Assembly (NCBI RefSeq): GCF_030246945.1
Contig: NZ_CP126742.1
Location: forward strand, 2,108,001 to 2,172,000
DNA: 64,000 bases
Origin: Microbacterium sp. zg-Y1090
Lineage (GTDB): Bacteria > Actinomycetota > Actinomycetes > Actinomycetales > Microbacteriaceae
Direction of reading: 5' to 3'
Shown here one piece after another: positions 6,207 to 11,892 of this stretch. The notes below the pieces were generated by a model that saw only the letters and a program-made list of their open reading frames with translations, made no database searches and was not told the origin of the DNA. The position numbers and the translations under genes are program-made. Each line of letters opens with the position of its first letter. Position 1 is the stretch's first letter.

Positions 6207-6237
6207 AGAGAAACCTGTGTGGTCGCCACACGGTCAA
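6207..6237 (-). promoter_or_regulatory. MerR-like promoter/operator in front of the chloroperoxidase-like gene
   Basis: Read on the minus strand: TTGACC (6232-6237), a 19-base spacer holding the dyad GTGTGGCGACCACAC, then TTCTCT as a weak -10. It belongs to a set of four related sites (also 6279-6309, 9580-9610 and 11862-11892). Confidence 0.55.
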
Positions 6238-6278
6238 GCGCCTGTCGGCCGCCAGGGACCGGCCTCCTCGCCTGCCGC

Positions 6279-6309
6279 TTGACCCTGTTGTGAGAACACG
6301 GCCTTGGCT
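6279..6309 (+). promoter_or_regulatory. MerR-like promoter/operator in front of the dehalogenase-like gene
   Basis: TTGACC (6279-6284), 19-base spacer with the dyad CCTGTTGTGAGAACACGG, then TTGGCT (6304-6309). The over-long spacer and central dyad are the hallmarks of promoters activated by MerR-family regulators. Confidence 0.6.
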
Positions 6310-6389
6310 TGATCACCGAGGCGATGAGCACGCCGACCACCCCGGGGCGGCCGCACCTCGCCGCATCCGATCGATCCAAGGAGCACCCC

Positions 6390-7250
6390 ATGCCGACCGT
6401 CCACCACCGCACCCTCGCGCTCGATGACCTCGAGGTCTTCTACCGAGAAGCGGGCCCCGCCGACGCTCCCGTGCTCCTGCTGCTGCACGGATACCCGACG
6501 AGCTCGCACATGTTCCGGCGTCTGATCCCGGCGCTGGCCGACCGCTACCGCGTCATCGCGCCCGACCACATCGGCTTCGGCCGCTCGTCCGCTCCCGCCG
6601 TCGACGACTTCCCGTACACGTTCGACGCGCTCGCCGATGTCACCGCCCGGTTCCTCGAAGAGGTCGGCGTCACGCGATACACCGTCTATGTGCAGGACTA
6701 TGGCGCGCCGGTCGCCTGGCGGCTGGCGCTGCGCGATCCGGCCGCGATCGAGGGGATCATCTCGCAGAACGGCAACGCCTACGAGGAGGGTTTCGTCGAG
6801 GACTTCTGGGCGCCGATCTGGGCGTATGCAGCCGACCCCTCCCCCGAGAACGAGAGCGCGCTGCGCCCGGCGCTCGAACGGGCAGCCGTCGAATGGCAGT
6901 ACACCCACGGTGTGCCCGACCCGACGACGGTCGATCCGGATGCCTGGGAGCACGACATCGCCCTCTTGCGCCGGCCCGGAGTGGACCGAGCCCAGCTGCA
7001 CCTCTTCGGCGACTACGGGACCAATCGCGAGCTCTACCCGCGCCTGCACGCCTGGCTGCGCGAGACGCAGGTGCCCGTCCTGGCCGTGTGGGGTCGCAAC
7101 GACGAGATCTTCGGCGCCGCGGGTGCCGAGGCCTTCCGTCGCGATGTTCCGAACACCCGCGTCGAGCTGCTCGACGCGGGGCACTTCCTGCTCGAGTCGA
7201 ACCTCGACGACGTCGTGGAGATCATCCGCGACTGGCGCGGCGGCTTCTGA
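6390..7250 (+). CDS. Alpha/beta hydrolase of the haloalkane dehalogenase / epoxide hydrolase type
   Basis: Hydrolase of 286 residues whose nucleophile elbow is VQDYG, so the nucleophile is Asp103 rather than Ser; this is characteristic of haloalkane dehalogenases and soluble epoxide hydrolases. HGYPTSSHMF (33-42) forms the oxyanion loop, Asp238 (WGRNDEIFG) and His265 (AGHFLLE) complete the triad. The start ATG at 6390 has AAGGAG six bases upstream; an upstream in-frame start at 6309 overlaps the promoter and is rejected. The residue after the nucleophile is Tyr rather than the Trp that binds halide in classical dehalogenases, so the specificity is open. It is divergent from the chloroperoxidase-like gene and shares its promoter type. 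Confidence 0.85.
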   Translation: MPTVHHRTLALDDLEVFYREAGPADAPVLLLLHGYPTSSHMFRRLIPALADRYRVIAPDHIGFGRSSAPAVDDFPYTFDALADVTARFLEEVGVTRYTVYVQDYGAPVAWRLALRDPAAIEGIISQNGNAYEEGFVEDFWAPIWAYAADPSPENESALRPALERAAVEWQYTHGVPDPTTVDPDAWEHDIALLRRPGVDRAQLHLFGDYGTNRELYPRLHAWLRETQVPVLAVWGRNDEIFGAAGAEAFRRDVPNTRVELLDAGHFLLESNLDDVVEIIRDWRGGF

Positions 7251-7803
7251 CGCCCGGTCAGAGACGAGCGGACTACCGGTCCACTTCCGCGCATACACCG
7301 GATCGCGGTCGGCTGTCGACCCGCACCGATGCGTCGCCCGGGCCCGAGACCGTGGTGCGGGTGGCTCGGATGCCGCTGGCATCCGCCCCTGGATCTCCGA
7401 AATCCGGACGAACGCGTCCCGTGTGCTGGGCAAGGGGTAGCGTGGATGGTGCCGAGGACATCAGGACGAACGCCCGAACGTTCATCCGAGACCATCTCGT
7501 GTGGTGGTGTTCCGGCCGGTCTCCGCAGCCCCCGAGCGTCCCCCCGCGTTCGATGAGGCCGGGACCGACAATGGCCGCGCCGTCCCGCGATCGGCATGGC
7601 GCGCGCCGAGAGACCCGGTGCCTCGCTCCCCCGCGGGGCGCCGGGCCGCGAACCTCCCGCTGATCAGGGCGGCGACAGCTCACCCGCGGGTGGTGGGAGC
7701 GGCCCGCCGGCGATCGCCTGACGAATCCGCCACACCGGAAGACCACTCAACGCACCGGGAGCCGGATCGTTCGTGTCGCGCTGGACCCTGATCCCGTCCA
7801 GGT
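7251..7803. other. Intergenic stretch without a supportable gene
   Basis: About 550 bases lie between the convergent dehalogenase-like and pyruvate oxidase genes. Open frames exist on both strands but none has a credible start, ribosome site or recognisable protein. Their Arg/Pro/Ser-rich composition is that of shadow frames. I see no RNA structure I can name. Confidence 0.6.
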
Positions 7804-10123: not shown

Positions 10124-10124
10124 C

Positions 10125-11230
10125 TCACGCCACTCCTTCTTCTGCCCTCACCTCGCCCGCAGCGATCGCGGCGACGAGCTCGGCGTGATCTGCATGGGTC
10201 TGATCTGCGTACGCGCGCGCGAAGCGGAGGATCTCCTCCTCGAAAGCGACTCCTCGCCCGATGTACTCGACGACCGCCGCCGGGTCGCCGCTGCGGGCGT
10301 GCGCCTTCGCCAGGGTGCGACCGCACGCTTTGGCGAACTGAGGGAGGTACGCCGCGATCTGCGCTCCCTTGGGGATGATCTTCATGTCGCGGTACTGACG
10401 CACGTAGTAGTCGGTGCCGTCGACACGCATGTGGCCGAGGAAGATGTCGGCGGCGGACTGCATGAGACGGACGAGCCGACGCAGATGCGGCGGGATGGAG
10501 GCGAGGTAGGTGTCGTAGACCTGCCGATAGGCGCGAATCCGCTGTTGCTCGGTCATCCCTTCGTCGATCCGCTTCATCGGCTCCAGGACGATCTTGTGCT
10601 GTCCGTTGTCGTCGGCGACCAGCTTCTTCGCCGAGCCATGGTGCGTCTGCGTGCGCGACTGCTTCTCGATGGCGCGCGTTGCCGCATGGGCCGACTCCGA
10701 GGTCAGTCCCTTCAGCGGCACATCGGCGGTGATCTGGTCGTACCAGACGTCGAGCTCTCCCATCCGGGCGTACCGTCGCATCGCCTTGCGATATCCGGTC
10801 ACGACGGCGGCTGCGGCATCCTCACCGCAGGTGCCGCCGAGTCGCTCCGCGTCGGCGAGCACGTAGACGCTGGTGATGAGGCGCTTCAGATCCCATTCGA
10901 ACGGCCCCGGGAGCGTCTCGTCGAAATCGCGCGCTCGAACAGCAGCGTCCTCTCCGGCGAGGCCCACAGCCCGAAGTTGAGGATGTGCGCATCGCCGCAC
11001 ATCTGCACCGTGAGCCCCGAGTGCGGCGCACTGGCCAGATCGGCCGCCATGACAGCTGCGGCGCCGCGCAGGTACGCCCACGGGGAGGATGCCATGCGCG
11101 CATACCTCAGAGGCAGAAGCCGAGCGTCGCGGATCGCTTCTTGCGCACGCAGCCGATCGAAAGCTCGCACCTGCCGGACGGCGGGGTGCCATGCGACCGT
11201 CCGAGAGGGGGCGCTGCCGAGAGTGGTCAT
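10125..11230 (-). pseudogene. DUF2252 protein, interrupted by a frameshift
   Basis: DUF2252 proteins are large, kinase-like-fold proteins of unknown function. The ATG at 11230 overlaps the upstream SDR stop (ATGA). The first frame carries PLRYARMASSPWAYLRG and VQMCGDAHILNFGLWASPER, then runs out of family similarity at LLFER. The continuation RDFDETLPGPFEWDLKRL begins in another frame at about 10931-10935 and runs to the stop at 10125 with conserved DYYVRQYRDMK and AHARSGD segments. Adding one base near 10931 restores a single frame of about 368 codons. Either the gene is broken or one base is missing from the assembly; the indels in the 16S gene make the second option realistic. Confidence 0.75.
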
Positions 11231-11802
11231 CGGCCGCGCTCCTCGGCGATGGAGTTGGCGCCGTCGATCGTGATGAGCTGCCCGGTGACGACGATCCCGG
11301 CCTTCGCCGCGTGGTAGGCAGGGTCGCCCCCATAGGCGGCGACAGGGCCCGACACCGAGGACACGTTCACGATGCGGCCGTAGCCGGCGGCCCGCATGGC
11401 GCCGGCCACCGCACGGGTCATCAGGAAGGTCGTGGTGAGGTTCCGATCGAGCGAGGCGTGCCAGTGGTCGAGGACTGTTCTGCCGAGCCCGCCCGGCTTG
11501 TGCGCGTCGGACACGGCCGCCATTCCGGCGTTGTTGACGAGGATGTCCACTCCCCCGAACACATCCCGCGCGCACGCGACGACCGCGTCCGCGCCGCCCT
11601 GCTCGGTGAGGTCGGCGACCACCCCTTCTGCCCGGATACCGGCATCGCGCAACTCTGCGACGCGCTCGAAGATGCGATCCGTCGTCGACGTGATCACCAG
11701 ATCATCGCCGGCGGCGCCGAGAAGGCGGGCCGACGCGAACCCGATGCCCCGAACGCTTCCCGCGCCGGTGACGATCGCAACGCGCTGTGTTCCAGTCGCC
11801 AT
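11227..11802 (-). CDS. Short-chain dehydrogenase/reductase with an internal deletion
   Basis: The protein is 191 residues against about 250 for classical SDRs. The NAD(P) motif TGAGSVRGIG (12-21), NNAG (90-93), the catalytic Ser in NVSSVSGP (146-153) and YxxxK (Tyr163, Lys167) are all present. Directly after AKAGI (about 170) the sequence continues as VVTGQLITIDGANS, which normally lies near the end of the family fold. The region between, holding the substrate lid and the PG motif, is absent, so roughly 50-60 residues have been lost in frame. Activity is doubtful. ATG at 11802 has GAGGGGAG upstream, a MerR-like promoter lies further upstream, and the stop overlaps the DUF2252 start. Confidence 0.75.
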   Translation of the reverse strand: MATGTQRVAIVTGAGSVRGIGFASARLLGAAGDDLVITSTTDRIFERVAELRDAGIRAEGVVADLTEQGGADAVVACARDVFGGVDILVNNAGMAAVSDAHKPGGLGRTVLDHWHASLDRNLTTTFLMTRAVAGAMRAAGYGRIVNVSSVSGPVAAYGGDPAYHAAKAGIVVTGQLITIDGANSIAEERGR

Positions 11803-11861
11803 GGTGACGCTCTCCCCTCGGTGGCCGACCGTCGAAACGGCCGGACGACGTCGATGTGCCG

Positions 11862-11892
11862 AGTCAAGGCCGTGTGGTCGCCACAGGGTCAA
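11862..11892 (-). promoter_or_regulatory. MerR-like promoter/operator of the SDR-DUF2252-esterase unit
   Basis: Minus strand TTGACC (11887-11892), 19-base spacer with the dyad CCTGTGGCGACCACACGG, then TTGACT (11862-11867), 60 bases from the SDR start. It is the clearest copy of the four. Confidence 0.62.

Follow-up and report, generated by a model that had tools for sequence, protein, structure and literature searches.

Four promoter-like elements of the same layout are scattered over the window, that is, the whole 64-kb stretch of the Microbacterium sp. zg-Y1090 genome analysed here, and they raise the question of whether the genes behind them answer to one regulator and, if so, to which. 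An earlier note, made from the sequence alone, had described them as TTGACC, a 19-bp spacer and a hexamer, and had likened them to MerR-activated promoters standing in front of different units. All four elements were recovered at the same coordinates and strands, and each precedes its own gene or unit, as follows:

6207..6237, minus strand: site 1, predicted MerR-type promoter/operator, TTGACC-19-TTCTCT, matrix score 30.9 bits, before an alpha/beta hydrolase gene
6279..6309, plus strand: site 2, predicted MerR-type promoter/operator, TTGACC-19-TTGGCT, 46.5 bits
9580..9610, minus strand: site 3, predicted MerR-type promoter/operator, TTGACC-19-TTGACT, 40.0 bits
11862..11892, minus strand: site 4, predicted MerR-type promoter/operator, TTGACC-19-TTGACT, 42.5 bits
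5316..6158, minus strand: alpha/beta hydrolase, 280 aa, putative target of site 1 (Pfam Abhydrolase_1)
6390..7250, plus strand: haloalkane-dehalogenase-like alpha/beta hydrolase, 286 aa, putative target of site 2 (Pfam Abhydrolase_1)
7804..9528, minus strand: poxB, ubiquinone-dependent pyruvate dehydrogenase, 574 aa, putative target of site 3 (NF006591, 931.4 bits, cut-off 792)
11227..11802, minus strand: SDR oxidoreductase, 191 aa, first gene behind site 4 (Pfam adh_short)
10125..11230, minus strand: DUF2252 gene in two frames with an internal piece missing (the homologue in locus L108 is a single open frame)
9632..10123, minus strand: PHB-depolymerase-type esterase, shortened, 163 aa (Pfam Esterase_PHB)

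The hexamer lies 49 bp from the start of the hydrolase gene 5316–6158, 81 bp from that of the hydrolase gene 6390–7250, 52 bp from that of poxB and about 59 bp from that of the SDR gene at 11802, a start that the simple gene caller set further in. The label chloroperoxidase-like for the hydrolase 5316–6158 is that of the earlier note, the match found here being Abhydrolase_1; for the hydrolase 6390–7250, the top NCBIfam matches are haloalkane dehalogenases, far below the cut-off.

The hexamer reads TTGACT or TTGGCT in three of the sites (2, 3, and 4), as had been described, and TTCTCT in site 1; in all four its first and last base is T. The proposed dyad CCSTGTGG...CCACASGG fits in full in site 4 only; what the sites have in common is the shorter CCnTGT-N7-ACAnGG. 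The core common to the sites, GACC-n-TGT-N7-ACA-n-GG, is placed inside the 19-bp spacer, with one mismatch in site 1.

The unit behind site 4 (window 9632–11802, minus strand) is decayed and its promoter is intact. The SDR protein measures 191 aa in the window versus 257 in L083, L104, and L108, and the esterase 163 aa versus an open frame of more than 330 codons in L108.

Genomic occurrence of the motif and a candidate regulator

Within the window alone the test is weak: TTGACCNTGTNNNNNNNACANGG with up to three mismatches has 10 matches (reverse readings counted) versus 2.5 expected, and 2 of 100 shuffled windows reach 10. The genome, a single contig of 3,068,413 bases, holds six exact matches to TTGACCNTGTNNNNNNNACANGG and none to the reversed pattern; with up to two mismatches, the counts are 13 and 5, respectively. 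The eight sites with at most one mismatch (six exact, two with one) all fall into two clusters 1.07 Mb apart, one made up of the four window sites and the other of four sites at C1:1,031,953-1,040,216, and the motif is thus not spread at random through the genome. Among the five matches with two mismatches, site 3 read in reverse accounts for one, three have matrix scores below 0 bits, and one, at C1:188,681, scores 28.8 bits and precedes the gene of a 516-aa hydrolase, which appears to resemble the TAP-like hydrolases behind sites elsewhere (the Pfam match coming from the L086 member only). Together with the two clusters, this brings the genome to nine predicted sites.

With a matrix derived from 73 sites in other genomes, exactly four sites of at least 8 bits are found in the 64-kb window (46.5, 42.5, 40.0, and 30.9 bits), the next best score being -0.9 bits and the reversed control giving none. 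These scores are partly built in, since the 73 sites were gathered using a pattern read off the window; the absence of other matches, the way the sites cluster in the genome, and the T....T hexamer beyond the pattern are informative and not built in.

There is no MerR gene in the window, as had been stated: it has zero matches to MerR_1, and the genome has nine. One of the nine sits in the second cluster, and the search for a MerR gene with a matching site was hence positive:

G000:C1:1039447-1040205 (L014:15447-16208): P0001, MerR family, 253 aa, MerR_1 match, among four sites

The sites of the second cluster (L014) precede genes for a CPBP-type membrane protein, an ABC-2 exporter pair, an NAD(P)-binding protein with a glutaminase next behind it, and a small membrane protein. 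Pfam searches gave no match for this last protein and, for its relative in L134, a match below the cut-off to the small multidrug export family. The fourth site of this second cluster starts in the last codons of the P0001 gene and spans the stop codon. This operator (L014:16194-16216) is oriented toward the next gene, and sites at or just past the 3' end of merR recur, for instance in L125, L129, and L133.

P0001 has a paralogue, encoded at C1:1707695-1708429, which is 58% identical and also carries Asn17. Its gene adjoins one that, by sequence reading, looks like a GyrI-type ligand-binding gene, near arsenic-type genes (L094, G000:C1:1700000-1716000). P0001 is probably the regulator of the sites, and the paralogue might take part in their regulation.

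Motif and regulator occur together in the 149 genomes of the genus. The exact motif is found in 22 and a P0001 homologue (E <= 1e-30; at most 18 candidates scored per genome) also in 22, with both in 20, the motif only in 2, the MerR only in 2 and neither in 125 (Fisher p 1.6e-20). The genomes with the motif and without a homologue at this threshold are G040 and G061. In G061 (L091) a HEAT-repeat gene comes after the site, and then a MerR gene that clusters with the P0001 family; in G040 (L092) the gene caller gave no gene beside the site. G083 and G086, the genomes with the MerR alone, have variant TGCC sites next to it. Related sites with the half-site TGTCA..TGACA, at L091:7282 and L093:7072, stand before a HEAT-repeat gene and then a MerR gene.

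Sixty-six loci of named genomes, retrieved by the MerR protein alone, span Agrococcus, Agromyces, Actinoplanes, Microbacterium, Myceligenerans and others. They contain 34 exact motifs in 22 loci, repeats included because some loci overlap (such as L124/L137), and no reversed pattern. A matrix site of at least 12 bits is present in 54 of the 66 (reversed control, 0): in all 23 loci whose called MerR is at least 55% identical and in 31 of the remaining 43, which include six whose MerR the gene caller missed. Once identical ones are removed, the 54 loci hold 105 matrix sites, and these counts are not independent events, since the sites are related by descent.

Distinct sites of at least 12 bits in the examined loci, variants counted and L099 and L101 left out, number 188, of which 162 have a called gene; gene starts in relatives are those of a simple in-house caller, and the target families were named from scans of one or a few members each. 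The most frequent targets are MerR itself (29), a small multidrug-export-like protein (24), GPP34 (16), and alpha/beta hydrolases (15), followed by TAP-like hydrolases (9), CPBP (7), ABC ATPase (7), SDR (5), DUF4260 (5), and smaller groups. Behind the site in L105 and L119 (G095 and G017), the small membrane protein is followed by a gene that reads as GNAT-like.

The G067 orthologue of the hydrolase 5316–6158 is likewise preceded by a site 49 bp away, and hydrolase sites at 49–50 bp, as in the window, occur in Myceligenerans (L132, L141) and G085 (L113). The gene behind site 2 (6390–7250) is also preceded by a site in L082, L083, and L108, and the 23-bp core of site 4 is identical in G031 and G119, before the same SDR gene. 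In two genomes merR itself lies among window-type genes, with sites before the hydrolase, poxB, and SDR genes in G148 (L104) and before the hydrolase gene, the SDR gene and the DUF2252 region in Microbacterium flavescens (L138). In L083 and L108, the SDR unit has poxB behind it in the same orientation, and poxB may be transcribed from the site of that unit.

Orthologue searches with the window hydrolase and poxB gave hits in 88 and 71 genomes, respectively, and the analysis covered the best 30 genus loci of each. Where the genome encodes a P0001-type MerR, 2 of 12 hydrolase and 2 of 12 poxB orthologues have a site within 400 bp; where it does not, the counts are 0 of 18 and 0 of 18. Most of the close orthologues examined lack a site, and so the two genes do not form a constant core of the regulon; as sites occur at a few orthologues and at none in genomes without the MerR, membership shifts quickly and tracks the regulator.

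Promoter architecture and operator recognition

The sequence logo comprises 81 sites, those of L091–L093 being left out (84 reduced to 81). T occupies position 25 in 75 of them and position 30 in all 81, and neither position was part of the search pattern. A T....T hexamer follows a 19-bp spacer in 75/81 sites, versus at most 18/81 for any other spacer from 14 to 24 bp. At the -10 place, TA...T occurs in 0 of the 81 sites, which is unusual for a promoter served by the housekeeping sigma factor, and A fills the second position of the hexamer in 2. We infer that the -10 element is kept weak, making the promoter depend on its regulator. The palindrome lies within the 19-bp spacer, as in promoters of MerR type, and the comparison bears out both the architecture and the shared regulation that had been proposed.

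P0001 has the N-terminal winged helix-turn-helix of the MerR family, for which the best structure matches are CadR, PbrR, and CueR. The monomer model has a mean pLDDT of 93.7, with the long dimer helix at residues 75–105. The C-terminal 146 residues adopt an all-helical fold (pLDDT 91.3), and no convincing relative of this model was found; none of the four Pfam families matched by P0001 at E up to 1 gives the sensor domain a name. The protein contains no cysteine, which makes cysteine-based sensing of metals, redox state or thiopeptides unlikely.

Among the 84 MerR proteins examined, 57 have a site within 400 bp; four of the 57 protein-site pairs were set aside, residue 17 being unreadable. 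Asn17 pairs with a TGT/ACA half-site in 28/28 cases and Lys/Arg17 in 0/25 (p 1.1e-15), the sites of 20 of these 25 being TGC/GCA. Residue 17 has the highest mutual information with the site among residues 4–110, with residues 76 and 100 near it, and the Mantel correlation is 0.57 for the C-terminal domain and 0.59 for the helix-turn-helix, so that shared ancestry accounts for part of the agreement between proteins and sites. In alignment, residue 17 corresponds to Glu17 of the MerR chain 4ua1, and its column is apparently that of position 14, presented in a section of PMC5045206 as the strongest correlate of specificity, with Glu in MerR and CadR-PbrR and Lys in CueR. The sites, their spacing, their linkage to the regulator, and the covariation of recognition helix and operator are well supported by comparison of sequences.

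Proposed circuit, alternatives, and known systems

The four sites very likely serve as operator-promoters within one MerR-type regulon, whose regulator is most likely P0001, perhaps sharing this role with its paralogue. Binding, activation, and signal are parts of the circuit that we infer. A MerR dimer would occupy GACC-n-TGT-N7-ACA-n-GGT in the 19-bp spacer and hold the over-long promoter off; a signal received by the helical C-terminal domain would then cause the DNA to be bent and untwisted, letting RNA polymerase use both boxes. The nine predicted sites would thereby switch on the hydrolases, poxB and the SDR unit in the window, the CPBP protein, the ABC exporter, the oxidoreductase-glutaminase unit and the small multidrug-export-like membrane protein in the second cluster, and the TAP-like hydrolase at the third place. 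From the nature of these targets, our best guess for the signal is a drug-like or membrane-active compound. The kinds of target that keep recurring, namely the small multidrug-export-like protein, ABC exporter, GPP34, CPBP and hydrolases, suggest that the response concerns xenobiotics or the envelope. The solvent, acid or oxidative stress regulon envisaged in the earlier note is not supported. The lack of cysteine speaks against a redox or metal sensor based on cysteines, and the broader set of targets points to efflux and envelope.

That the sites are worked mainly by the paralogue (C1:1707695-1708429, 58% identical), or by both proteins rather than by P0001 alone, is unlikely. Both carry the Val-Asn-Thr recognition-helix residues that pair with TGT/ACA, but no score exceeds -2.7 bits in the 16 kb around the paralogue, whereas P0001 is found among four sites; moreover, G067 and G031, which have the closest P0001 homologues (85%), possess just one member of the family at E <= 1e-30 and yet three exact sites each. 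It is quite improbable that the regulator is a repressor only, binding the dyads with the true start elsewhere and the 19-bp register unused for activation. The absence of TA...T from all 81 hexamers would suit such a repressor, but the first and last T of the hexamer (75/81 and 81/81) lie outside the search pattern, the pair stands out at spacer 19 only, and TTGAC is exactly at -35. There is next to no chance that the four sites resemble one another fortuitously or are copies without function from one recent duplication: the decay behind site 4 would agree with this, but the score gap in the window (30.9 versus -0.9 bits), the empty reversed controls and the conservation across genera speak against it.

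With P0001 retained as the preferred regulator, a wider reading is offered tentatively, at somewhat less than an even chance: an Actinomycetota MerR subfamily with an undescribed all-helical, cysteine-free sensor may govern a fast-changing regulon directed against foreign or membrane-active compounds, through promoters wholly dependent on the regulator, whose -10 avoids TA, with Asn versus Lys/Arg at one recognition-helix residue setting the half-site. The look-alike promoters, previously unexplained, become a circuit that can be tested, for which a regulator is named, nine sites are predicted and a simple residue-to-base rule is proposed. Because the regulator has relatives in many actinomycete genera and the sensor domain bears no Pfam name, identifying the signal would give a function to many unannotated regulators and membrane proteins.

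Heavy-metal MerR subfamilies have metal-binding cysteines, and SoxR has a four-cysteine iron-sulphur motif. Having no cysteine, P0001 was rejected as a SoxR and as a member of the heavy-metal subfamilies (MerR, CueR, ZntR, CadR-PbrR), for which its best NCBIfam score is 45.9 bits versus a cut-off of 150.85. It resembles the heavy-metal regulators MerR, CueR, and CadR-PbrR in its winged helix-turn-helix N-terminus, in the palindrome inside a 19-bp spacer, as outlined for heavy-metal promoters in part of PMC1526738, and in a specificity apparently set at the same recognition-helix column; portions of PMC8113463 and PMC5045206 deal with the mechanism of promoters with 19–20-bp spacers. P0001 differs from them by its length of 253 aa, its helical C-terminal domain, its lack of cysteine, and its many scattered targets.

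The TipA class was likewise rejected by sequence: TipAS (PF07739) is absent both from the four Pfam families that P0001 matches at E up to 1 and from the 25 families listed of the 37 matched by 42 family members. Unlike the drug-sensing TipA class with its TipAS domain, P0001 thus has no TipAS Pfam match, nor does it have a Cys of the kind through which TipA binds thiopeptides covalently, as a passage of PMC7762955 states. Among the matches listed from the open-licence PMC literature, no title or abstract opening concerned this regulator or motif. The EcmrR/BmrR multidrug regulators, as characterized in a portion of PMC8113463, also act on 19-bp-spacer promoters, a likeness to which a drug-like signal for P0001 would be added as a guess; their effector domain is GyrI-like, whereas that of P0001 is predicted to be all-helical.
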